IMG/VR virus record: IMGVR_UViG_3300027974_000205
Span: 1 to 20,099 of that record
Source of the DNA: a virus
Direction: 5' to 3' (one strand)
Length of the DNA: 20,099 nucleotides
Below the pieces are notes generated by a model. It searched no databases. It saw only the letters and a program-made list of their open reading frames with translations, and was not told where the DNA came from. The translations under genes and the position numbers were made by a program. Below, in pieces: positions 816-20,099 of the stretch. How positions within the stretch are numbered: the first letter of the stretch is position 1; each line of letters opens with the position of its first letter.

Positions 816-1544
816 ATGTCAAAACAAGATAAGTCACCAAAGATTCTTCAGAGAGACAAGTTCAAAGAAGAAATAAAGATTAGAGACCTCAACTGGACAG
901 ACAAACAAAAAGAATTCATAAATATAGCTCTAGATAAGAACGTAAAAATGATGTTTATTAGCGGCCCCGCCGGCTCTTCTAAAACTTTACTAAGTATATA
1001 TTGCGCTCTTCACCTAATAAAGGAAAAGAAAGTTAGTGACATTATGTATATCCGATCTCCAGTAGAGAGCAGCGATAGCAAAATCGGTTTCCTACCAGGA
1101 GACGCTGATGAAAAGCTAAAGTACTACAACTTACCCTTTGCTGATAAGCTAGACGAACTACTATCTAAGCCATCTATAGAGTCTCTTAACAATCAAGGCA
1201 GACTTCAGAGTCATCCATTGTCATTTGTGCGCGGTATGAGTTGGAACTGCAAGGCTATTATTCTTGATGAGGCCCAAAACTGCACTCAAAAAGAAATAGT
1301 TACCCTAATGACAAGAGTAGGAGAGTTTAGCAAGTGCTTTATCTTAGCAGATCCTGATCAATCTGACTTGGCTCATGGTAAGTCTGGCGGATTTGAGAAG
1401 CTCCAAGCTGTTTTCGGGGAAGATGACAGCAAAGAAAAGGGAATCTACTCTTTCCACTTCACCGAAGAAGACATTAAGAGAAGCGATATAGTCAAATTTA
1501 TAGTTAAAAAACTAAAAAACTTTTCTCCAGCCTTGAGAGTATAA
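816..1544 (+). CDS. phoH: PhoH-like P-loop ATPase
   Basis: The 242-residue protein matches the single-domain PhoH ATPase family in length and motifs. A Walker A GPAGSSKT is at 50-57, the family signature GFLPGDxxEK at 91-100, a Walker B AIILDEAQN at 147-155, and a sensor-like ADPDQSD around 178-184. PhoH-like genes are common in phages of aquatic bacteria; the proteins bind ATP and are linked to RNA metabolism or phosphate starvation, but their role in infection is not settled. The gene is monocistronic in appearance: its own TATAAT promoter precedes it, a candidate terminator follows at 1555-1585, and its 3' end overlaps the convergent minus-strand gene by 33 bases. Family assignment is firm, function is not. 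Confidence 0.9.
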   Translation: MSKQDKSPKILQRDKFKEEIKIRDLNWTDKQKEFINIALDKNVKMMFISGPAGSSKTLLSIYCALHLIKEKKVSDIMYIRSPVESSDSKIGFLPGDADEKLKYYNLPFADKLDELLSKPSIESLNNQGRLQSHPLSFVRGMSWNCKAIILDEAQNCTQKEIVTLMTRVGEFSKCFILADPDQSDLAHGKSGGFEKLQAVFGEDDSKEKGIYSFHFTEEDIKRSDIVKFIVKKLKNFSPALRV

Positions 1545-1834: not shown

Positions 1835-2212
1835 AAATGCGGGACAGGAATAGATTACGCATACGAAAAACCAAATTTCTGTACTAAGTGTGGATTCAAT
1901 TTCTCGCCAGTCAAGTCTGCACTTGCAAAAACTATTCCCCCCAGACAAAAGATTATTACACCTTCTGAAGAGGAAACGGAAGATGTCGAGTCTTTGGAAA
2001 ATATTAAGAACATGTCTTGTTTAGATGTGGAGATCTCAGCATCGCCAGACCGTAAAACTAAATTTAAAGACATAATTGGCACAAGGTCAGATTCTCCAGC
2101 CCAAGAAGACCAAATTCAAGTTGGACCTGTAGATAAGAAAGAATTCTTAGAGTCGTTCAGGAAAGAAGCTGGATTCTATCCATCCAGAAACCAAAATGAT
2201 GAAGAAGAATAA
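1817..2212 (+). CDS. Zinc-ribbon protein of unknown function
   Basis: The 131-residue product opens with a compact zinc ribbon: two CxxC knuckles (Cys5/Cys8 and Cys22/Cys25) separated by 13 residues. The remaining ~100 residues are polar and acidic, with no recognised fold, and probably largely disordered. It is the first gene of a run whose next member is a sigma-like factor, and overlaps that gene by 17 bases, so translation is probably coupled. A zinc ribbon next to a sigma-like factor would suit a transcription or nucleic-acid-binding role, but that is inference from position. No Shine-Dalgarno sequence; the promoter at 1780-1808 places the transcript start almost on the ATG. Confidence 0.7.
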   Translation: MKTYCQKCGTGIDYAYEKPNFCTKCGFNFSPVKSALAKTIPPRQKIITPSEEETEDVESLENIKNMSCLDVEISASPDRKTKFKDIIGTRSDSPAQEDQIQVGPVDKKEFLESFRKEAGFYPSRNQNDEEE

Positions 2213-2879
2213 ATTAAAATTTGAAAAGAATTTAGATTTAATTAATACGGAAATCCTTAAAAGGAAAAATAAGTGGACCTTATCCGCTCTTAACTGGATC
2301 GATTTTGAAGACGTAGCTCAGATAGTAGTGTTCCATTTATTCAAAAAGTGGGATCTCTACGATCCTGCAAAACCAATGCTACCTTGGGTAAACAGAATCA
2401 TATCTAATCAAATAAAAAACATAATTAGAAATAATTATGGTAATTACGCTAGACCATGCTTAAAGTGCGCCGCTTCTTTAGGCGATTCTGGTTGTAAAAT
2501 ATATGGAGAGCAAAACTCAGATTGCCCCATGTACAAAAATTGGAAAAATACAAAAAAGAACGCTTACGATATAAAAATGGCAGTATCAATTGAAGATCAC
2601 CCAACAGAAATAAACAATAGATGCCAAGAATCTTTAGATATACAAAAAGCTACAGCAAATTTAAACATAGTAATGCAAAAGGTTCTTAAACCTATGGAGT
2701 GGCAAGTGTATGATTTGCTATATATTCAATTAAAAAGCGAAGAACAAGTTTGCAAAATCTTAAAACTAAAATTCGATAAGAATTCTAAAACAGGATACAA
2801 TAAACAGCTTAGAAACATTCAGAAATCTATAATAAAAAAAGCAAAACTTGTTATTAGAAACGGAGAAGTGGACCTATGA
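2196..2879 (+). CDS. Sigma-70-like RNA polymerase factor with a four-cysteine insert
   Basis: Residues ~36-82 of this 227-residue protein read as sigma-70 region 2: an acidic helix (DFEDVAQIVVFHLFKKW), the turn with Asp-Pro, then PWVNRIISNQIKNIIR, matching the core-binding and -10-recognition helices of ECF-type sigma factors. A cysteine-rich insert follows (Cys88, Cys91, Cys100, Cys110), likely a zinc site, and the C-terminal ~165-215 is a lysine-rich helical stretch that could be a region-4-like -35 reader. It probably redirects host RNA polymerase to phage promoters, possibly the GTGTAAT motifs in front of structural genes. ATGATG offers starts at 2196 and 2199. It overlaps the upstream gene by 17 bases and the downstream one by ATGA. 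All seven arginines are AGR. Confidence 0.7.
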   Translation: MMKKNKLKFEKNLDLINTEILKRKNKWTLSALNWIDFEDVAQIVVFHLFKKWDLYDPAKPMLPWVNRIISNQIKNIIRNNYGNYARPCLKCAASLGDSGCKIYGEQNSDCPMYKNWKNTKKNAYDIKMAVSIEDHPTEINNRCQESLDIQKATANLNIVMQKVLKPMEWQVYDLLYIQLKSEEQVCKILKLKFDKNSKTGYNKQLRNIQKSIIKKAKLVIRNGEVDL

Positions 2880-3967
2880 CCCAACCAATTTTAACAAAAG
2901 AACAAGAAGATTTAGTAATACAGCTCTGGAACGATAATAAGGATAACCCCCCAAGTCTTCAAGACCTTACTCAAAAAGTTTTTCCCGAAATCGCTAATGT
3001 TGATGGCAGAAGTGTTTATGGTAAAGCAGTAAAAGTTTTTTTAGCCTCTAGATCTTTAAATGTAAAAACTAAAAGCCAATACACCCCGAAAACCAGAGTA
3101 GACTTCTCTCAAGACCAGAAAGATTATATTTGTAATAATGCTTCTTTAATGTCTGCTGTAGAAATATCTAGGGAACTTTTTCAAAACTACTCTTTAAACA
3201 ACCTTTCTATAGAATCAAGAAGCGTTCAAGAATATTTAGATTCTTTGCCAAAGCAAGTTAACCCAGGAACGAGTCACGAAGAAGAAGAGACTCAAGGAGA
3301 CTATAAACCGCCTAAAAATATTGAGCGAGCTACAGTTAGAGTAAATAAGTATGTTCTTAATGGTTTAGATAAAGATAAAATCTCAGCCAAAAACAAAAAA
3401 GAATTAACATCTCTCATATCTTATTTGCATACCTACAGATTTTTGCATCAAATAGCAACATACGGAAAGCAGGGAGATAGGGATTTATTTGAGAGCAGTT
3501 TTATAAGATACACTTATGATAAATCAGACCTAACGCAAGAAGAAGTAGATCAATATATTGTTTTGGCCACTGAAGTTGTAATATCATCAAATATTCAAGC
3601 GGCAATTCAAACTCTTCAAGAGCAAATAGACATAGAGATAAGTTCTGGTAATAGAATCCCTATGCCTATTATAGAAGCAGTGACTTCTGCTCGTACAGAA
3701 TACAATCAATGCGTAAGTCGTCAGCAAAAACTTCTTAACGATCTAAAAGTAAAAAGAAGCGAAAGACTTTCTAGTCAAGTAAAAGATAACGCCTCGATTC
3801 TTAACCTTGTTCAGATGTGGAAAGACGAAGACACTAGAAAAGAAATGATAAAAATGGCAGATATGAGAAGAGAAGTCTTAAAGGGAGAGATTGGGCGCTT
3901 GTCATCTATGGACGATGTTAAAGCTAGAATTTTTGGTCTTACAGAAGAGGAGGTTTTAGATGGTTAA
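2876..3967 (+). CDS. Candidate small terminase subunit or packaging DNA-binding protein
   Basis: I do not recognise a named family in this 363-residue protein. The N-terminal third holds two similar helical segments (~5-60 and ~76-125), each beginning with a Thr/Ser-x-(Glu/Asp)-Gln-(Glu/Lys)-Asp helix and ending in an Arg-Ser-Val helix, as in repeated helix-turn-helix modules. After an acidic linker (~133-145) comes a long helical region with coiled-coil character (~225-330). DNA-binding N-terminus plus helical oligomerisation region, two genes upstream of the large terminase, is what a small terminase would look like, though at this length it would be large. It overlaps the sigma gene by four bases (ATGA) and the next gene by eight; GGAG upstream is a plausible ribosome-binding site. 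Confidence 0.45.
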   Translation: MTQPILTKEQEDLVIQLWNDNKDNPPSLQDLTQKVFPEIANVDGRSVYGKAVKVFLASRSLNVKTKSQYTPKTRVDFSQDQKDYICNNASLMSAVEISRELFQNYSLNNLSIESRSVQEYLDSLPKQVNPGTSHEEEETQGDYKPPKNIERATVRVNKYVLNGLDKDKISAKNKKELTSLISYLHTYRFLHQIATYGKQGDRDLFESSFIRYTYDKSDLTQEEVDQYIVLATEVVISSNIQAAIQTLQEQIDIEISSGNRIPMPIIEAVTSARTEYNQCVSRQQKLLNDLKVKRSERLSSQVKDNASILNLVQMWKDEDTRKEMIKMADMRREVLKGEIGRLSSMDDVKARIFGLTEEEVLDG

Positions 3968-4880
3968 ATGTAAAATTTGCAATGTAGAGTTCGAAACAGA
4001 TAAATCTTTTCATGGGCATCTTAAGTCTCATCAATTGAGAATGGTAGAGTACTACCAAACTCATGAACCAAGACACGACCTGCTCACTGGAGAATTAATA
4101 AACTTTAAAAACAAAGACTATTACTTCTCTAACGATTTCAATAATAAAAACTCCATGAAAAAATGGCTTAGCCAGCAAACCGCTGAGGGCCAGAAAGAAT
4201 ATTTAAAAAAACTCCTCTCTCAAAGAAAACAAAAACACAACTTAATTTATGCACCTACTGAAGTCGAGCTTAGATCTATTACTAGCCCGCCCGTTCCTTA
4301 TTATCATAAGCTTTTTTTGGATTACTATGACATTTGCAATTCTTTGGGCTATAAAATCAAATACGCATACCCAAAAGAAGCGCTAAAATATAAAATTAAA
4401 GACGGTTTTAGTATTTATATTGATACAAGAGAGCAGATGCCTCTAGTTATTGATTATCCCACCGAAATCAAGGGTTTAAAATTTGGAGACTACGCTATCA
4501 ATGACCCGAATAACAAATGCTATATAGAAAGAAAGTCTATCTCTGATTTTATTGGCACAATGAGCGGCGGATACGAGAGATTCTGTAGAGAGATAGAGCG
4601 CTCCATAGCAGCAGAGGCTAATCTAATTGTACTAATAGAGCGACCACTACAAGAGTGTTTGAGTTTTCAACATTTAGATTATGTATCTAAGAAAATTAAA
4701 GTTACTCCAGAGTTCGTTTTCTTTAATGTAAGAGAACTAATACAAAAATACACCAATGTTCAGTTTTTATTCGTAGACGGCAGAGAAGAGTGCGTAAGAG
4801 TAATGAAAAGAATATTCTTTAGCAATGGAGAATATAAAAAATACGACTTACAATTAATGTACGACTTAAAGCTGTTATAA
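3960..4880 (+). CDS. C2H2 zinc finger fused to an ERCC4-type nuclease
   Basis: The first 24 residues are a classical C2H2 zinc finger (Cys4, Cys7, His20, His24; spacing C-x2-C-x12-H-x3-H). A basic linker region follows, and residues ~150-280 carry the ERCC4/XPF nuclease signature: IDTRE (154-158), GDY (176-178), ERK (190-192) and Asp196, the metal-binding and catalytic set of this fold. ERCC4 enzymes cut branched or flap DNA; the finger may give DNA or protein targeting. Its place directly between the candidate small terminase and the large terminase suggests processing of branched or concatemeric DNA before packaging, but a homing-type or recombination role is also possible. A strong GAGGAGG ribosome-binding site lies inside the end of the upstream gene, which it overlaps by eight bases. 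Confidence 0.8.
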   Translation: MVKCKICNVEFETDKSFHGHLKSHQLRMVEYYQTHEPRHDLLTGELINFKNKDYYFSNDFNNKNSMKKWLSQQTAEGQKEYLKKLLSQRKQKHNLIYAPTEVELRSITSPPVPYYHKLFLDYYDICNSLGYKIKYAYPKEALKYKIKDGFSIYIDTREQMPLVIDYPTEIKGLKFGDYAINDPNNKCYIERKSISDFIGTMSGGYERFCREIERSIAAEANLIVLIERPLQECLSFQHLDYVSKKIKVTPEFVFFNVRELIQKYTNVQFLFVDGREECVRVMKRIFFSNGEYKKYDLQLMYDLKLL

Positions 4881-4881
4881 T

Positions 4882-6720
4882 ATGTGGCACGAAACACCTA
4901 AATATAAAAAGAAGATTGAAAATTATAACGAAGTTTTTAGTCTGTTAGAAGGCGAGCTTGAAGATAGAGAGGCTAAGATTACTTTGTGCAAATTTTTGCG
5001 ACAAAATCTTTATTTAACAACTTATCTATTAACTGGGATAAAACTCTCTGCTTATCAGGAAATCACTCTTAAAGGAATGTTTAATAGAAACTTTTCTATG
5101 TGCGTGTGGGGTCGTGGTTGCGGTAAGTCGTTCATTGCTAGTGTGTATTGTGTGCTACAGTGCATCTTTGAACCAAATACGAAGATTCTTATAGCAGGCC
5201 CAACATTTCGTACAGCTAGAGCTATATTTAATAGCATAGAGAAGATGTCTGAAACTAGAGGCGCAGAGTTATTGCTGCAAGCTTTTGGCGCTAAGAGCAA
5301 AAGAAACGATCTTTACGAATGGGATATTAATGGCGGCTCGATTAGGGCTATTCCTTTAAGCGGCGAAAAGATTCGTGGTTTTCGCGCGAATATTCTAGTT
5401 CTTGACGAGTTCATGCTTTTGCCCGAAGAGATTATTAAAAATGTATTGATGCCATTCCTTGTTGCCCCGCAAGACATGAAGAGACGTATTGATATTCGTG
5501 AAATGGAAGACCTGCTAATCAAAGAAGGCAAAATGAAAGAGGAAGATAGAATGGTGTTTGTAAATAACTCGAAAATGATAGCTCTTTCTTCCGCTAGTTA
5601 TACTTTCGAAAATCTTTATAAAACTTACCAAGAATGGGTTAGCAAAATTACATCTCCAGAGAATGCAGAGTCTACTTATTTTGTTTCGCAATTAGGTTAC
5701 GAAGCTTTACCAGCAGAAATGATAGATAAAACTATTATTGAAGAGGCCCAAAGTGGCGGGACTTCTCATTCTGCATTTCTTAGAGAGTACTGCGCTCAGT
5801 TCACAGATGGATCAGACAGTTACTTTAGCGCAAAGAAGATGGAAGAATGTACTCTTAAAGATGAGTACCCGCACACTCTGATTAGAGGATCTTCTGGAAA
5901 AAGATATGTTGTAGGAATTGACCCTAACATGAGCGATAGTCCAAATGCAGACTATTTTGCTATGGCGGTACTAGAGATAGACGACGATACTGGAGTAGGA
6001 GTGCTTGTTCATACTTACGCTGGCTTAGGAAATTTAAATAACCATGTTAAATACTTTGCTTACTTGATGTCTAGCTTTAATGTTGTTTTAGTTATTTGTG
6101 ACAATGCTGGAGCAGACATATTCTTAGATACTTGCAACGAATCTGATGTCTTTAAATCTAATAAATTAAAAATTAGAGCCTTTGATTTTAATTCTGATTT
6201 AGATGGTTCAGAGTACGAGGCAGAAGCTCGAAATGCCAAATCCCAATACAATCAAACAGAGGGAAAAATAGCTTTTAGCCAAGTCTTCTCTTCTGGATTC
6301 ATTAGAAAGGGCAACGAATATCTGCAAGCTTGTATCGACTATAAGAAAGTTTTATTCGCTTCTAGGACTTGCTCTAACGATAAGTTTTTTAGCCAAGTTA
6401 TAGACTCTCATTTGCCAAGAGAATTAATATTTAATGGCGACAAGCAGGAATGGACCAACCTTGATTTTATTGAGAGCCAAGACGATTATATATATCAAAC
6501 AAAAAAACAATGCGCTCTAGTAGAATACACAACAAGTTCTAGAGGAATGCAAAATTTTGATTTGCCTCAGCACCTTAAGCGAGGATCTTCAGCAACAAGA
6601 GCTAGAAAAGATAACTATTCTGCATTTATGTTGGCTAACTGGGGATTGAAATCTTATAATGAAATAATGAAGCAAAATACTGAAAATAATACATTTACAT
6701 TTACTCCAGTAATGTTTTAG
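4882..6720 (+). CDS. terL: Large terminase subunit (T4 gp17-like packaging ATPase/nuclease)
   Basis: The 612-residue protein has the two-domain plan of large terminases. In the N-terminal ATPase, a Walker A WGRGCGKS is at 76-83, an AGPTF segment near 105-109, and a Walker B ILVLDE at 171-176. In the C-terminal RNase H-like nuclease, the expected acidic residues are in VVGIDPNM (Asp347), VVLVICDNAG (Asp407) and DNYSAF (Asp577). It translocates DNA through the portal into the prohead and cuts the concatemer. The length matches T4-type TerL. The gene begins one base after the nuclease stop codon, with no Shine-Dalgarno sequence, so it is probably translated by coupling. TATAAT just before the ATG overlaps the upstream stop and has no -35 partner. 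Confidence 0.93.
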   Translation: MWHETPKYKKKIENYNEVFSLLEGELEDREAKITLCKFLRQNLYLTTYLLTGIKLSAYQEITLKGMFNRNFSMCVWGRGCGKSFIASVYCVLQCIFEPNTKILIAGPTFRTARAIFNSIEKMSETRGAELLLQAFGAKSKRNDLYEWDINGGSIRAIPLSGEKIRGFRANILVLDEFMLLPEEIIKNVLMPFLVAPQDMKRRIDIREMEDLLIKEGKMKEEDRMVFVNNSKMIALSSASYTFENLYKTYQEWVSKITSPENAESTYFVSQLGYEALPAEMIDKTIIEEAQSGGTSHSAFLREYCAQFTDGSDSYFSAKKMEECTLKDEYPHTLIRGSSGKRYVVGIDPNMSDSPNADYFAMAVLEIDDDTGVGVLVHTYAGLGNLNNHVKYFAYLMSSFNVVLVICDNAGADIFLDTCNESDVFKSNKLKIRAFDFNSDLDGSEYEAEARNAKSQYNQTEGKIAFSQVFSSGFIRKGNEYLQACIDYKKVLFASRTCSNDKFFSQVIDSHLPRELIFNGDKQEWTNLDFIESQDDYIYQTKKQCALVEYTTSSRGMQNFDLPQHLKRGSSATRARKDNYSAFMLANWGLKSYNEIMKQNTENNTFTFTPVMF

Positions 6721-6737: not shown

Positions 6738-7628
6738 ATGCCTAATTTAATCAGAAGAAAACAAGTTGATCAATCAGAGTTTTCTGGCTTTTTTGTAGAA
6801 GTCGGAGGTGTTAATTATTATCCTCTCGCAACTAACCCTTCGAATTTTATTGATGCTGGAGACTTGTCTACAGCTACTGGACAGGTTTATGTAGATCTTA
6901 ATGCCGTATCAGGCAATCTAAATACTTCAGTTATTTTATCTGGCCAAAATTCAATAACTTATACAAATGTAGTTAGCGGAAATTTGTCTGCTAATTTAGT
7001 TTCAACCGGAAGCTCGCTAACCTCTTCTGTGAGTTCTTTAAGCGGATACGTAATATCAGTTAGCGGAAATTTAACCGCTGGAATATCGAGTACTAGTGGA
7101 GTCTTAAATACAAAAATTAATACTACTAGCGGAGATTTAAAATCGTATACGAATACAGTGTCTGGAAGTTTATCTTCCCAGATAGTTTCTTCTTCTAGCT
7201 CTACGGTTGTTAATTCTATTGTTAGCGGAAATAATTTTAACTTCACTGGGCAAAAAATATTTAACTCTACAGTATCTGCTTCAAGGATTAATTTAAGTGG
7301 GCTGGCAGCGCCTAGTCAAATCGCTATAATAGCGTCTTCTGGAATGGTATCTATAGTTGGGTCTTCTGGAACTTTCGTGTCTTTTGTTGAGACTGGAATT
7401 GGTAGCGCATCTAATTCTTTATTTGCAGTCACAGACGCCGCTGGATTGCCTATGATAGAACTATATGACGATTATAAATTAGTTTTAGGTCATGACTCTA
7501 GAAAATCTATAGTTCTGAGTGGAATTTCTGGATATGTAATCATGCCTAGCTTACCAGACTATACTCAAACCACTAGTTTACCTAGCGGGTCAATTTTCAG
7601 AAGCGGCAATTTTTTAATGATTAAATAA
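6738..7628 (+). CDS. Virion fibre protein, paralogue of the 13591 fibre
   Basis: The first ~38 residues (MPNLIRRKQVDQ..SGFF.EVGGVNYY..NPSNFI) match the N-terminus of the fibre gene at 13591 position by position, which suggests a shared virion-attachment domain. Residues ~55-165 are a low-complexity array of Ser-Gly-Asn-Leu-type turns about every 12-20 residues, as in trimeric fibre shafts. Then come a TGQKIFN segment (170-176), a motif SLFAVTDAAGLPMIELY (227-243) also found in the giant fibre at 16952, and a short beta-rich tail. It is likely a trimeric tail or head fibre. Its place between terminase and portal is unusual, since fibre genes normally sit with the tail module. No Shine-Dalgarno sequence; a GTGTAAT motif and small hairpin precede the start. 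Confidence 0.75.
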   Translation: MPNLIRRKQVDQSEFSGFFVEVGGVNYYPLATNPSNFIDAGDLSTATGQVYVDLNAVSGNLNTSVILSGQNSITYTNVVSGNLSANLVSTGSSLTSSVSSLSGYVISVSGNLTAGISSTSGVLNTKINTTSGDLKSYTNTVSGSLSSQIVSSSSSTVVNSIVSGNNFNFTGQKIFNSTVSASRINLSGLAAPSQIAIIASSGMVSIVGSSGTFVSFVETGIGSASNSLFAVTDAAGLPMIELYDDYKLVLGHDSRKSIVLSGISGYVIMPSLPDYTQTTSLPSGSIFRSGNFLMIK

Positions 7629-7637
7629 GGAACAAGA

Positions 7638-9536
7638 ATGAAAAGAAAAAAACTCCAAGAAATAATTCCTTTGATGGCATCAGCTTCTACAATCTCAGAT
7701 ACTCCTATCTCTGCTCGTAGAAACGTAGCTGGGACCATTGAGAGAACAGAGCGTTTTCATAATATTGAATATGGACTAACGCCATTCAAGTATTCTAATA
7801 CGATTTCCAACAAAAGCTCTCTTAATGTAAGAGACGCTGTTATTCTTTGCCAGAAAGCTTACTATAATTTTTCTTCTTTTAGAAATGTTATTGATTTGAT
7901 GACAGAGTTTTCTTGCAGCCCTATCTATTTCACCGGAGGCAACAAGAAGTCTAGAGATCTTGTTACAGCTTTATTTAAAAAAATAAATATCGATAACTTT
8001 GTTGATAAATTTTTCAGAGAATACTATCGCTCTGGTAATGTTTTTATATATAGATTCGATTATAAGGTTTCCCAAGAAGATGTAAATAAAATTACTCAAG
8101 TTTTTGGAAGCGAAACTATTGCTGCTGAAACATTGCAACTTCCATCTATGTATATGGTATTGAATCCAGCAGATATTCAATATGGTGGTAATATTTCTTT
8201 CGTTGGTACTAATTATTATAAAATACTTACTGATTACGAACTAGAAAGATTGCGCCACCCAACTACCGATGAGGATAGAGAGGTTTTGAAGAGCTTGGAC
8301 GAGCAAAATAAACTAAGGCTAACTAAAAAGACATTGTCTGGCGCAGGCGCGTTTATAACCATTCCACTTAACACAGAAAAAGTTTCCGCAGTATTCTACA
8401 AAAAGCAAGACTACGAACCATTCTCTGTTCCTATGGGTTTTCCAGTTCTAGAAGATATAAACTGGAAGCAAGAGATGAAAAAGATGGACATGGCTCTTAC
8501 GAGAACAACTCAGCAAGCTGTTTTGTTGATTACTATGGGCTCTGAGTTAAAGAGTGGAGCTTTAAATATCAATCAAAAGAATATTGAGGCTATGCAAAAT
8601 CTTTTCCAAAACCAATCGGTTGGAAAAGTTCTAGTTTCAGATTTTACTACCAAAGCTCAGTTTGTTATTCCTGATATTGCTAACATTCTTGACCCAAGAA
8701 AATACGAAGTAGTAAATACAGACATCCAACAAGGATTAAATAACATTCTTGTTGGTGACGAGAAGTTCTCGGCCACTAGCATTAAAGTTAATATTTTTAT
8801 GCAAAGACTTGAGCAAGGAAGGCAAGCTTTTATAAATAATTTTCTAGTCCCAGAGGTCAAGAGACTTTGTAAAAATTTAGGATTCAAAAATTTTCCTATG
8901 CCTCACTTTGAGGAGATAGATATTAGAGACTCTTCAGTTTGGCAAAGAGTTGTTGCTCAGTTAATGCAACTAGGAGTTTTAACTGCTGAAGAAGGTATGC
9001 AAGCTATTGTTACAGGAAGGCTGCCAACACCAGATGAGTCTATAGAGTCTCAAAGAAAATACAAAGATCTTAAAGACGAGGGGCTTTACGCCCCATTAGC
9101 TGGAAATGCTGCTGGTGGCGGAGCAACTGGAAGGCCTCCAGGATCTTCTTCTCCTCAATCATCGAAAAAAACCTCTCCTCCCGGATCTGGTAAAAAGGCT
9201 CCAGCTATAGCCAATTATTCTGTATCTAATATCTCTCAGTCTTTCAGAGAATACGAGAGCTTAACTAATGATGTAGCCGAAGCATTAAAGAAGAAACACA
9301 AGAAAAAATCTTTAAATAAAGAACAGGTACAAGTAGCAGAAGCAATGGCAAAAGCTATCTTTATGAATGAAGAAAAAGCAGATTGGACATCATCGATTAA
9401 ATCTTATTTAGCCGGCAATACTAAATCTAACGTAGAGAAAATTAATAAGCTATCTGCGATATCAGAAGAGCATTCTGTTGATCTTTTTTCAGCAGCTATA
9501 TTAAATTTTAGTCAAACATACTTAGAAAAAGTGTAA
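7638..9536 (+). CDS. Portal protein with a helical C-terminal extension
   Basis: This 632-residue product, between terminase and prohead protease, has the size and pattern of a portal: a mixed N-terminal region with SSLNVRDAV (60-68) and a YYRSGNVFIYRF strand (129-140), a NPADI turn (176-180), a stem/crown-like segment with TTQQAVLLITMGSE (290-303), and the DIQQGLNNILVG loop-helix (362-373) typical of phage portals. It forms the dodecameric ring that carries the packaging motor. Residues ~490-525 are a Gly/Ser/Pro-rich linker, followed by a separate ~110-residue lysine-rich helical domain that the portal core does not need. The ribbon of AAGGA nine bases before ATG is a good ribosome-binding site. 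It starts ten bases after the fibre stop codon. Confidence 0.85.
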   Translation: MKRKKLQEIIPLMASASTISDTPISARRNVAGTIERTERFHNIEYGLTPFKYSNTISNKSSLNVRDAVILCQKAYYNFSSFRNVIDLMTEFSCSPIYFTGGNKKSRDLVTALFKKINIDNFVDKFFREYYRSGNVFIYRFDYKVSQEDVNKITQVFGSETIAAETLQLPSMYMVLNPADIQYGGNISFVGTNYYKILTDYELERLRHPTTDEDREVLKSLDEQNKLRLTKKTLSGAGAFITIPLNTEKVSAVFYKKQDYEPFSVPMGFPVLEDINWKQEMKKMDMALTRTTQQAVLLITMGSELKSGALNINQKNIEAMQNLFQNQSVGKVLVSDFTTKAQFVIPDIANILDPRKYEVVNTDIQQGLNNILVGDEKFSATSIKVNIFMQRLEQGRQAFINNFLVPEVKRLCKNLGFKNFPMPHFEEIDIRDSSVWQRVVAQLMQLGVLTAEEGMQAIVTGRLPTPDESIESQRKYKDLKDEGLYAPLAGNAAGGGATGRPPGSSSPQSSKKTSPPGSGKKAPAIANYSVSNISQSFREYESLTNDVAEALKKKHKKKSLNKEQVQVAEAMAKAIFMNEEKADWTSSIKSYLAGNTKSNVEKINKLSAISEEHSVDLFSAAILNFSQTYLEKV

Positions 9537-16951: not shown

Positions 16952-19900
16952 ATGGCTATAACAAGGTATGCGGGAGATAGATTTTATGGTTTAGACGCAG
17001 AAAAAAACTCTCTGTTATCTAAGGTCATTGATGGAGCAATATATAATGCTTCAGATAGTCTATTTCAATATGTCAAGATTAATGGATCTTGGGTATTGTC
17101 GTCTGGAGGATCTGGATCTGGGTCTAGCGGATCGTCTGGTTCTAGAGGATCTAGTGGTTCGTCTGGTAGTAGTGGGTCATCTGGCTCTAGCGGATCTAGT
17201 GGGTCATCTGGGTCTAGCGGTTCATCTGGGTCTAGCGGTTCATCTGGGTCTAGTGGGTCATCTGGGTCTAGCGGTTCATCTGGGTCTAGCGGTTCATCTG
17301 GCTCTAGTGGGTCATCTGGGTCTAGCGGATCATCTGGGTCTAGCGGTTCATCTGGCTCTAGTGGGTCATCTGGGTCTAGCGGATCTAGTGGGTCATCTGG
17401 GTCTAGCGGTTCATCTGGCTCTAGCGGTTCATCTGGGTCATCTGGATCTAGCGGAGCTGCTGGAGGTGTTAGATATAATTTTTCAAATAGTACTGTAGAC
17501 TCCGATCCGGGTAGTGGAATCTTAAGATACGATAATGCTTCTCCCGCAGGCATAGATTTCATATTCATAGATAACGTTGACCAATTGGGAAATTCTCAAA
17601 CAGCGTGGTTTGACACTTGGAGTAATGGTATTACGTCGACTGATCACGGCACGATAACTATTTACAGTAGAGATTCGGGAAATGTAGTTAACCAATTTAC
17701 GGTCTACAACGTTTACGTCAGTTCCGGATATTATAGGATATACGTTAGCCATATTGCAGGCGCTATACCTAGCAATGGGGCATTGTTAGCTGTAAGTTTT
17801 TCTAAGACTGGAAATAGTGGATCTAGCGGATCTAGTGGGTCTTCTGGCTCTAGCGGATCATCCGGTTCTAGCGGATCATCTGGCTCTAGCGGTTCATCTG
17901 GGTCATCTGGCTCTAGCGGATCATCTGGGTCATCTGGCTCTAGCGGATCTTCAGGCGCTAATGGAACTCCAGGAGGACCAGGGTCTAGTGGTTCATCGGG
18001 AGTCACTGGATCTGGAGGATCTCCAGGAGGACCAGGGTCATCTGGATCTAGCGGATCTAGTGGGTCTTCTGGCTCTAGCGGATCATCCGGTTCTAGCGGA
18101 TCATCCGGTTCTAGCGGATCATCTGGCTCTAGCGGTTCATCTGGGTCATCTGGCTCTAGCGGATCATCTGGGTCATCTGGCTCTAGCGGATCTAGTGGGT
18201 CTTCTGGCTCTAGCGGATCATCCGGTTCTAGCGGATCATCTGGCTCTAGCGGATCATCCGGTTCTAGCGGATCATCTGGCTCTAGCGGATCTTCAGGCGC
18301 TAATGGAGCGACAGGCCCAACTGGTCCAACTGGCCCTACAGGATCAACTGGCGGAACTGGATCTAGCGGTTCGTCTGGGTCATCTGGAACTAGCGTTGCC
18401 GTTTCTGGATCATCAGGTTACCTAGTTAGATTCACAAGCGCTACCACGATAGGAAATTCTTCTGTAGCTTTTGATAATGGATCCAATATTGGTATAGGTA
18501 CAACAGTTCCTGCTTATAAATTACATGTTGCGGGACCAGGCTTTATTGGTAGACAAAATAGCTATGGTGCTTATGATGCCGCTGATGCTGATTTAATAAT
18601 ATCAAATTATAATAGTGATAATACATCAATATTACTTTTTAATAATGCTGGTGCTTACCACTCTAGTTTAATAAATTACTATAATAATATTCTTTCTTTA
18701 GGATTAAATAATAGCAATAGTACCAATTCAATATTAACATCAACCGCTATAAACATTACCTCTACTGGTGTTGGTATAGGTACAAGTAGTCCTGCTGCAA
18801 TATTACAAGTTGAAAATTCTGGAAGAATACTTGGGGTTTTAAGATTGCAAATAACACCACAAACTACATTCTATGACCATACATTTGCAATTGGCACCGA
18901 TGGAGGAGGCGCTCAAGGATTTATTTATACAAGTGGAACTGGCGGTACATTTCCGCTTGATACATATGGTGAATTAATTTTACAAGCCGGACCAAGAACT
19001 GGTTTTAATAATGGTATTAGTTTGGTTACTGGAACAACATCTCCGAGTGTTAAACTAAGAATTGCAGAAGGTGGTAATGTTGGTATAGGAACAACAAGTC
19101 CATCTACCAATCTTCATATCGGCGCGACAGCCGCAAGTGGAGGAGCCGGTGGCACTCTAGGAGTATTTTTAAGTCGTGGAGTAACAACAAACTTTTTTGA
19201 AGCATTTGATGGTACTAAATCATTTATAGCTGGCGTAGATAATACTCAAGGTTTTGCCAAAGTTGGAACATTATCAAATCATCCAGTTTCAATTACCCAA
19301 AATAATGGTAGTGCAATATATATCGATACTAGTAAATACATAGGAATAGGAACAACTAGCCCATCGACTTACTCTTCTCAATTAGCAATAGAAACATCTC
19401 AGACAAGAGCAATAATGGCATTCAATACTGCATTAGCTGATGCAGGAACACTGTATGGGTTGGGCTTCGGTTATGCAATGAGCAATTACAACAGTGCTTA
19501 TATAAGTTTTTATAAAGCTGGTGTTAGTAGCACTTCTAATCGTTTATCTTTTAGCTTATGGAATAAAGATGACATCTTAAATATAAATGGTGCCGGGAAT
19601 GTTGGCGTAGGAGTGACTGTTCCTTCAAGCAAATTTCATGTAAATTCAACAACAGCAGGAGAAACGATAATTAGAGCAGATGGCACAAATGGGACATTGT
19701 TTTCTGTAGTCGATGATTTGAGCGACTCTTTGATGTCAGTAAATAACTCAGCGGGGCTTCCTGTGATGGAAGTTTTTGCAGACGATAGAGTAGTGATGGG
19801 GCAATATGGCAGCGGAGATTTTGTATTAAAAAACAACAAGGTAGGAATTGGCCAAAGCAATCCTTTATATACTCTTGATGTTTCTGGAACTATTAGATTT

Positions 19901-20099
19901 ACTGGGATCTCTCCGAGCTCTAGCACCAATTGCTTAGTAATAGACTCGGATGGGGCCGTAAAGACAAAAATAAACGCTGCAAGTTCTGGATCTTCTGGCT
20001 CTAGCGGTTCATCTGGCTCTAGCGGATCTTCAGGCGCTAATGGAACTCCAGGAGGACCAGGGTCATCTGGATCTAGCGGTTCATCTGGCTCTAGCGGAT
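16952..20099 (+). CDS. Giant collagen-like tail fibre (3' partial, runs off the window)
   Basis: The frame is open from the ATG at 16952 to the last base: 1049 codons with no stop. Order: a ~50-residue N-terminal domain (MAITRYAGDRFYG...), probably for virion attachment; a Gly-Ser-Ser collagen-like tract (~51-171); a ~115-residue beta-rich globular domain (~172-286) ending GALLAVSFSKTG; a second, longer Gly-X-Y tract (~287-490) with GANGTPGGPG and GPTGPTGPT units; then six repeats, ~80-100 residues apart, each marked by (N)xGIGxxxP and a following beta strand, at ~511, 606, 709, 797, 884 and 964; a LFSVVDD motif (~917) shared with the fibre at 6738; and a third Gly-Ser-Ser tract from ~1011. 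It is probably a trimeric fibre with collagen-like shafts, and its receptor-binding tip lies beyond the window. No Shine-Dalgarno sequence. Confidence 0.85.
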   Translation, partial: MAITRYAGDRFYGLDAEKNSLLSKVIDGAIYNASDSLFQYVKINGSWVLSSGGSGSGSSGSSGSRGSSGSSGSSGSSGSSGSSGSSGSSGSSGSSGSSGSSGSSGSSGSSGSSGSSGSSGSSGSSGSSGSSGSSGSSGSSGSSGSSGSSGSSGSSGSSGSSGSSGSSGAAGGVRYNFSNSTVDSDPGSGILRYDNASPAGIDFIFIDNVDQLGNSQTAWFDTWSNGITSTDHGTITIYSRDSGNVVNQFTVYNVYVSSGYYRIYVSHIAGAIPSNGALLAVSFSKTGNSGSSGSSGSSGSSGSSGSSGSSGSSGSSGSSGSSGSSGSSGSSGSSGANGTPGGPGSSGSSGVTGSGGSPGGPGSSGSSGSSGSSGSSGSSGSSGSSGSSGSSGSSGSSGSSGSSGSSGSSGSSGSSGSSGSSGSSGSSGSSGSSGSSGSSGSSGSSGSSGANGATGPTGPTGPTGSTGGTGSSGSSGSSGTSVAVSGSSGYLVRFTSATTIGNSSVAFDNGSNIGIGTTVPAYKLHVAGPGFIGRQNSYGAYDAADADLIISNYNSDNTSILLFNNAGAYHSSLINYYNNILSLGLNNSNSTNSILTSTAINITSTGVGIGTSSPAAILQVENSGRILGVLRLQITPQTTFYDHTFAIGTDGGGAQGFIYTSGTGGTFPLDTYGELILQAGPRTGFNNGISLVTGTTSPSVKLRIAEGGNVGIGTTSPSTNLHIGATAASGGAGGTLGVFLSRGVTTNFFEAFDGTKSFIAGVDNTQGFAKVGTLSNHPVSITQNNGSAIYIDTSKYIGIGTTSPSTYSSQLAIETSQTRAIMAFNTALADAGTLYGLGFGYAMSNYNSAYISFYKAGVSSTSNRLSFSLWNKDDILNINGAGNVGVGVTVPSSKFHVNSTTAGETIIRADGTNGTLFSVVDDLSDSLMSVNNSAGLPVMEVFADDRVVMGQYGSGDFVLKNNKVGIGQSNPLYTLDVSGTIRFTGISPSSSTNCLVIDSDGAVKTKINAASSGSSGSSGSSGSSGSSGANGTPGGPGSSGSSGSSGSSG
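17102..17465 (+). repeat. Gly-Ser-Ser coding repeat tract 1
   Basis: About 40 copies of a 9-base codon triplet, GGN plus two serine codons. Serine codons tend to alternate between TCT-AGC (or TCT-AGT) and TCA-TCT pairs, so the DNA unit is really 18 bases. All are in frame with the giant fibre. Confidence 0.9.
17812..18418 (+). repeat. Gly-X-Y coding repeat tract 2 with internal segmental duplications
   Basis: About 200 codons of Gly-X-Y, mostly Gly-Ser-Ser with Asn/Thr/Pro-containing interruptions. It holds long exact copies: 17849-17950 equals 18092-18193 (102 bases, offset 243), 17822-17892 equals 18182-18252 (71 bases, offset 360), and 17818-17880 equals 18043-18105 (63 bases, offset 225). 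All offsets are multiples of nine. Confidence 0.9.
19982..20099 (+). repeat. Gly-X-Y coding repeat tract 3 (continues past the window)
   Basis: At least 39 further Gly-X-Y codons at the right edge. Bases 20009-20064 are an exact copy of 17930-17985 (56 bases), about 2.1 kb away within the same gene, which suggests copying between shafts. Confidence 0.9.

Follow-up and report, generated by a model that had tools for sequence, protein, structure and literature searches.

What does a gene for a nuclease of the ERCC4 type do in the middle of a viral terminase operon? The 20,099 nucleotides of viral DNA analysed here (IMG/VR record IMGVR_UViG_3300027974_000205; below, the window) contain an intact open reading frame with an ATG start at positions 3960..4880 (plus strand, as are all features given below). 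It encodes a protein of 306 amino acids and lies between a candidate small terminase gene (TerS) and the gene of the large terminase (TerL). The original prediction described the product as a fusion of a C2H2 zinc finger with an ERCC4 nuclease that might debranch concatemers or direct the initial packaging cut. The fusion is real. The gene is probably a standard part of the preparation of DNA for packaging in this viral family.

Domain structure of the protein

The ERCC4 nuclease domain occupies residues 147-290 (4398..4829). The Pfam model PF02732 (ERCC4) matches residues 166-284 with E=9.4e-7 and 29.3 bits, the curated cut-off being 24 bits; PHROG 3490, "ERCC4-type nuclease", is matched at 3e-13 and the NCBIfam model of the Hef nuclease at 1e-6. 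The domain is detected in all 37 diverse relatives (E<=0.05). Comparison of the family profile with PDB sequences yields Hef (1j22, 2e-6), and Foldseek on solved structures returns at E<=0.01 Hef, XPF, Mus81, FANCM and no others, with a TM of 0.74, by target length, for 1j22. The catalytic motif (DxRE, GD, ERKxxxD) is complete, D155-x-R157-E158 ... G176-D177 ... E190-R191-K192-x3-D196, and its active-site positions do not vary across 148 relatives, save that E190 is replaced by D in two of them. Asp177 and Lys192, singled out in the original prediction, are the correct residues, both within the intact motif. By domain, motif and fold, the product of 3960..4880 belongs to the ERCC4 (XPF/Mus81/Hef) superfamily.

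XPF, Mus81 and Hef cut branched DNA, and such nucleases are used in human cells. XPF and Mus81 in their full architecture work as a dimer on branched DNA. That full architecture is not present here, since Pfam finds no (HhH)2 domain in the window protein. Nor is there any HNH family by Pfam, PHROGs or NCBIfam, or a match to PF02945 (Endonuclease_7).

The zinc finger (3969..4031, residues 4-24) has the ligands C4, C7, H20 and H24 with the spacing C4-x2-C7-x12-H20-x3-H24 and the expected hydrophobic core, and is thus a predicted zinc binder by the C2H2 pattern. On the window protein alone the Pfam finger models reach 1e-3, which is under their cut-offs. In the relatives, zf-C2H2_4 matches 37 of 37 diverse proteins, and other finger models give values down to 6e-7; the finger is kept in 140-143 of the 143 alignable ones. 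There is one finger only in the window protein, and its recognition positions are occupied by small residues. Natural variants with altered finger spacing occur at L127:549-1508 and L214:863-1765.

The finger is followed by a conserved middle region (4032..4397, residues 25-146) that matches no family above cut-off and is helical at residues 28-128 in the AlphaFold model, which is confident (pLDDT 94.5). A match of this region to PDDEXK_15 was rejected as chance-level (E=0.05, one of 37 relatives). After the ERCC4 domain the same model leaves only about 16 residues, the C-terminal tail (4830..4877, residues 291-306), in which D296 and Q298 are invariant (149 of 149 relatives); one may guess at a docking role for them. 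In a library of viral fold models, the ERCC4 half alone was matched, the best viral match being L7THM4, and the combination of finger, helical region and nuclease was absent among the matches.

Operon structure and translation

The gene order is PhoH, a small zinc-ribbon ORF, sigma factor, TerS candidate, ERCC4 gene, TerL, a structural gene and portal. The PhoH-like ATPase (816..1544; PF02562, 2e-45) and the sigma-70-like factor (2196..2879; PF04542, 1e-6), which belongs to the same operon, are conserved neighbours upstream. TerL (4882..6720, 612 amino acids) is recognized by PF03237 and PHROG 2. Its ATPase and nuclease motifs are intact, and it has conserved aspartates D347, D407 and D534, as would fit a nuclease site of its own. 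The portal (7638..9536) is assigned from position and length, Pfam and PHROGs giving nothing above cut-off; almost every relative whose sequence extends far enough has it downstream of TerL. The 363-residue product of 2876..3967 is a candidate small terminase: its position, N-terminal helical units and 90-residue C-terminal helix agree with this assignment. No Pfam, PHROG or NCBIfam family matches it, nor does any solved small terminase by fold, and profile comparison with two proteins from the TerS position was negative.

The nuclease ORF starts 8 bp inside the TerS candidate and ends one base before TerL, in agreement with the original prediction. The ribosome-binding-like stretch AGAGGAGG (3945..3952) lies within the 3' end of the TerS candidate and precedes the nuclease ATG. 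AGGA/GGAGG-like sites stand before the nuclease start in 96 of 138 relatives and before the TerL start in 9 of 116. Since TerL so rarely starts with such a site, the pattern suggests that its translation may be coupled to that of the nuclease gene.

No packaging site or other cis element within the gene is strongly conserved. Synonymous variation dips mildly at about 4140-4350 (0.33-0.37 versus 0.41 gene-wide), which is too weak for a hidden cis element. A defence-system reading of the gene was dropped, as PADLOC gave no match. No tRNA or non-coding RNA was found in the window. Elsewhere in it, arrays of 18- and 27-bp repeats (17116-18363 and 19988-20099) apparently lie in collagen-like, glycine-rich segments of tail proteins, and an ORF at 45-737 has a signal-peptide-like start and an outer-membrane-protein-like sequence; a similar ORF is found at the same place in G001, a relative of 174.5 kb.

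Conservation of the gene position

A first scan of viral sequences with the nuclease as query gave 73 relatives (76-97% identity), all with identical gene order wherever flanks are present. Wider scans added hundreds more from uncultured viruses of freshwater and marine origin, the habitats being those suggested by sample types and contexts rather than tabulated. Of 148 distinct proteins, 137 come from loci with both flanks identified, and these have the order TerS-ERCC4-TerL, in 114 of them with an overlap of exactly 8 bp with TerS. The sole contrary locus is L214 (38% identity), where the gene is situated between TerL and portal. As to hosts, there are weak hints: the contigs L213, L214 and L215 were binned in metagenome genomes of Flavobacteriales, Proteobacteria and Flavobacteriaceae.

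As these searches had started from the nuclease itself, a search anchored on TerL was done. The nuclease is present in 72 of the 80 loci found, and the other eight begin inside or just before TerL. Wherever both terminase genes are included, the nuclease is between them (64 of 64), with no empty sites. The TerL query was built from members of the lineage, and the statement about the slot is limited to that lineage. The nucleases from these loci are merely 25-34% identical to that of the window. In 57 of 57 such distant relatives the finger ligands, D155, R157, E158, G176, D177, R191, K192, D196, D296 and Q298 are retained, and E190 is mostly D. The structural gene between TerL and portal (6738-7628), taken from the same operon as a control, is missing from all 72 distant loci; therefore simple inertia of the operon does not explain the persistence of the nuclease. 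Some marine relatives have gained accessory genes next to the nuclease, on one flank or the other, without its leaving the interval from TerS to TerL.

The original prediction named homologues scattered at random loci as evidence against itself; these were sought and not found, and the fusion stands beside terL throughout the lineage. The gene is neither stray nor mobile.

The accessory genes at the junctions of TerS, nuclease and TerL (L121:3133-3873 and 4823-5494; L381, L390, L393) encode a sulfotransferase, a 2OG-Fe(II) oxygenase, sugar epimerase-like and methyltransferase-like proteins and a 163-residue nuclease-like ORF. At L117:3674-6619 an intein containing a LAGLIDADG domain splits TerL at its ATP-binding loop. 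The cultured phages MaeS, LIBA6276 and PJN02, whose TerL is related and more distant, have no extra gene between TerL and the preceding ORF; in Bacillus phage Slash that place is taken by an HNH gene (Slash_32).

Evolution of the nuclease gene

The nuclease diverges together with its neighbours (Mantel r 0.78 for nuclease and TerL, 0.76 for nuclease and TerS, 0.77 for TerS and TerL). The dN/dS ratio of about 0.05-0.08 indicates purifying selection, with dS near saturation in some pairs. A local recombination tract is visible in the alignment: positions 3960-4450 are 95-98% identical to L001/L002 at the nucleotide level, whereas the flanks are mostly 65-87% identical, so that the 5' half of the gene appears to have been exchanged between the window's virus and L001/L002. 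Discordant pairs among 1966 number two for the nuclease, three for TerS and one for TerL, and thus exchange is no commoner than in the neighbouring genes.

Other candidate nucleases of the lineage

The gene in the terminase cassette is the sole ERCC4 gene of G001; the block of RecA, DnaB and polymerase genes has none (RecA being labelled by reading the sequence, not by a family search). Pfam finds no endonuclease VII, RuvC, RusA or T7 endonuclease I in this genome; the same searches recovered the resolvases of T4 and T7, that of T4 with PF02945 at 4e-23. G001 also has an HNH gene, similar in its core to a PHROG that bears the label endonuclease VII, and a 138-residue nuclease-like gene beside RecA (97101-97517, equivalent to L197:2101-2517). 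The latter recurs in five of the lineage's 11 long records, which are all fragments or of unestablished completeness. Either of these genes could be a resolvase, and the RecA-adjacent gene is possibly a second recombination nuclease that would share the work on branches. Hence we do not claim that the ERCC4 enzyme is the only resolvase.

Comparison with known systems

With archaeal Hef, XPF and Mus81 the window protein shares the ERCC4 fold and the complete D-x-RE, GD, ERKxxxD motif. However, it has neither helicase nor (HhH)2, having instead the N-terminal finger and the helical region, and its gene is viral and lies in a terminase operon. The closest proteins among named phages are the ERCC4 nucleases of haloviruses (PHROG 3490; HF1/HF2, HSTV-2, HRTV-27), with 31-35% identity over the ERCC4 domain. 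They are 145-161 residues long, without finger or helical region, and in the two genomes examined their genes are not part of a packaging operon.

In function the nearest parallel may be endonuclease VII of phage T4 (gp49), which binds the portal and frees motors stalled on Y-DNA (PMC9958956, PMC3485210). The likeness is in the proposed task of debranching for packaging; gp49 is not homologous, being of an unrelated nuclease family with its gene outside the terminase operon. HNH endonucleases adjacent to terminases resemble the present case in the coupling of a nuclease gene to terminase genes (PMC5304195, PMC9611059; Slash_32), and have a nuclease fold other than ERCC4. Moreover, the slot of the Slash HNH gene is empty in MaeS, whose neighbouring genes are related, whereas no member of the present lineage that shows both terminase genes lacks the ERCC4 gene.

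A finger similar to that of the window protein (52% identity over 33 residues) was found at the N-terminus of a NUMOD3 homing-type endonuclease in L074, which differs in the remainder and lacks an ERCC4 domain. The C2H2 finger therefore looks like a module shared among phage nucleases, and the rarity of such fingers in phages, to which the original prediction appealed, is doubtful as an argument.

Possible function

The reading towards which we lean, by analogy with T4, is that of a late structure-specific endonuclease debranching concatemers for the terminase. The nuclease would be expressed late, together with the packaging motor, and would trim forks, flaps and Holliday junctions from replicated and recombined concatemers, keeping the terminase from stalling at branches. 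Cutting close to the junction would fall to the ERCC4 domain, and the finger with the helical region may replace the contact with DNA or protein that helix-hairpin-helix domains give in cellular ERCC4 nucleases. Late co-expression, nuclease activity, preference for branches, the role in packaging and contact with TerL or portal are what we infer here; the reading is supported by the domains with their intact motifs, the strong sequence conservation, the constant slot in the terminase cassette and the co-divergence. Against it count the missing (HhH)2 domain, which is typical of XPF/Mus81, and the two other candidate resolvase genes of G001. The shared operon position indicates co-expression at most, as the same operon contains PhoH and sigma-factor genes, which are not packaging enzymes.

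Debranching is preferred to the next two alternatives because of the precedent of gp49 and because TerL keeps its own nuclease site. The protein might help TerL instead, promoting or positioning the cut at which packaging starts or ends, with the finger aiding recognition of the site. This is in line with the HNH genes next to terminases, which follow the same slot logic (PMC5304195, PMC9611059) and one of which occupies the same slot in Slash, and with the possible dependence of TerL on translation of the nuclease gene. However, the window protein has no HNH motif, the ERCC4 superfamily is structure-selective, and no strongly conserved cis element was found in the gene. Site recognition is hardly to be expected of a lone finger whose recognition positions carry small residues, and TerL, whose nuclease aspartates are conserved, needs no replacement for its cut. 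Hence a helper of TerL seems unlikely, and for the direction of the initial cut, as originally proposed, there is no specific support. A general recombination or repair nuclease, merely co-transcribed with late genes and taking no direct part in packaging, is perhaps slightly less likely still: the operon also contains PhoH and a sigma factor, and in haloviruses and magroviruses (PMC10160649) ERCC4 nucleases accompany the replication genes or are classed with them. Yet in G001 the gene is confined to the terminase cassette and missing from the block with RecA, DnaB and polymerase, and in the lineage it has kept its slot at 25-34% identity despite gene insertions on either side.

That the gene is a mobile or homing endonuclease, or a newly domesticated one, is very improbable, although the finger on the L074 endonuclease and the exchanged 5' half would fit this. 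The slot is always occupied, the nuclease has diverged in parallel with the terminase, and discordant exchange is as rare as in TerS and TerL; homing was rejected on these grounds. There is, finally, a bolder form of the debranching hypothesis, tentative and on balance doubtful, in which the protein is a subunit of the motor: an XPF-type nuclease docking on TerL or portal, perhaps via the invariant tail, and clearing branches in a large uncultured group.

No published description of an ERCC4 nuclease between terminase genes was found in the open-access literature searched, in accord with the original suggestion that this could be an undescribed nuclease. Viral resolvases have been listed in five groups, none of them ERCC4 (PMC3485210). 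Compared with 50,697 phage records, the portal and capsid proteins of the lineage gave no match. Thus, while the enzyme class is known, the C2H2-ERCC4 form and its placement in the terminase operon appear to be undescribed.

The gene can serve as a marker of the lineage, and its product is a small, naturally occurring C2H2-ERCC4 enzyme that lends itself to study. What is known of the handling of branched concatemers by packaging motors comes chiefly from T4, with gp49 at the portal. If the debranching reading is true, a common, uncultured lineage of aquatic phages has made an XPF-type nuclease a regular partner of its terminase; as a subunit of the motor, this enzyme would add a debranching activity of phages beyond the five listed groups of viral resolvases.
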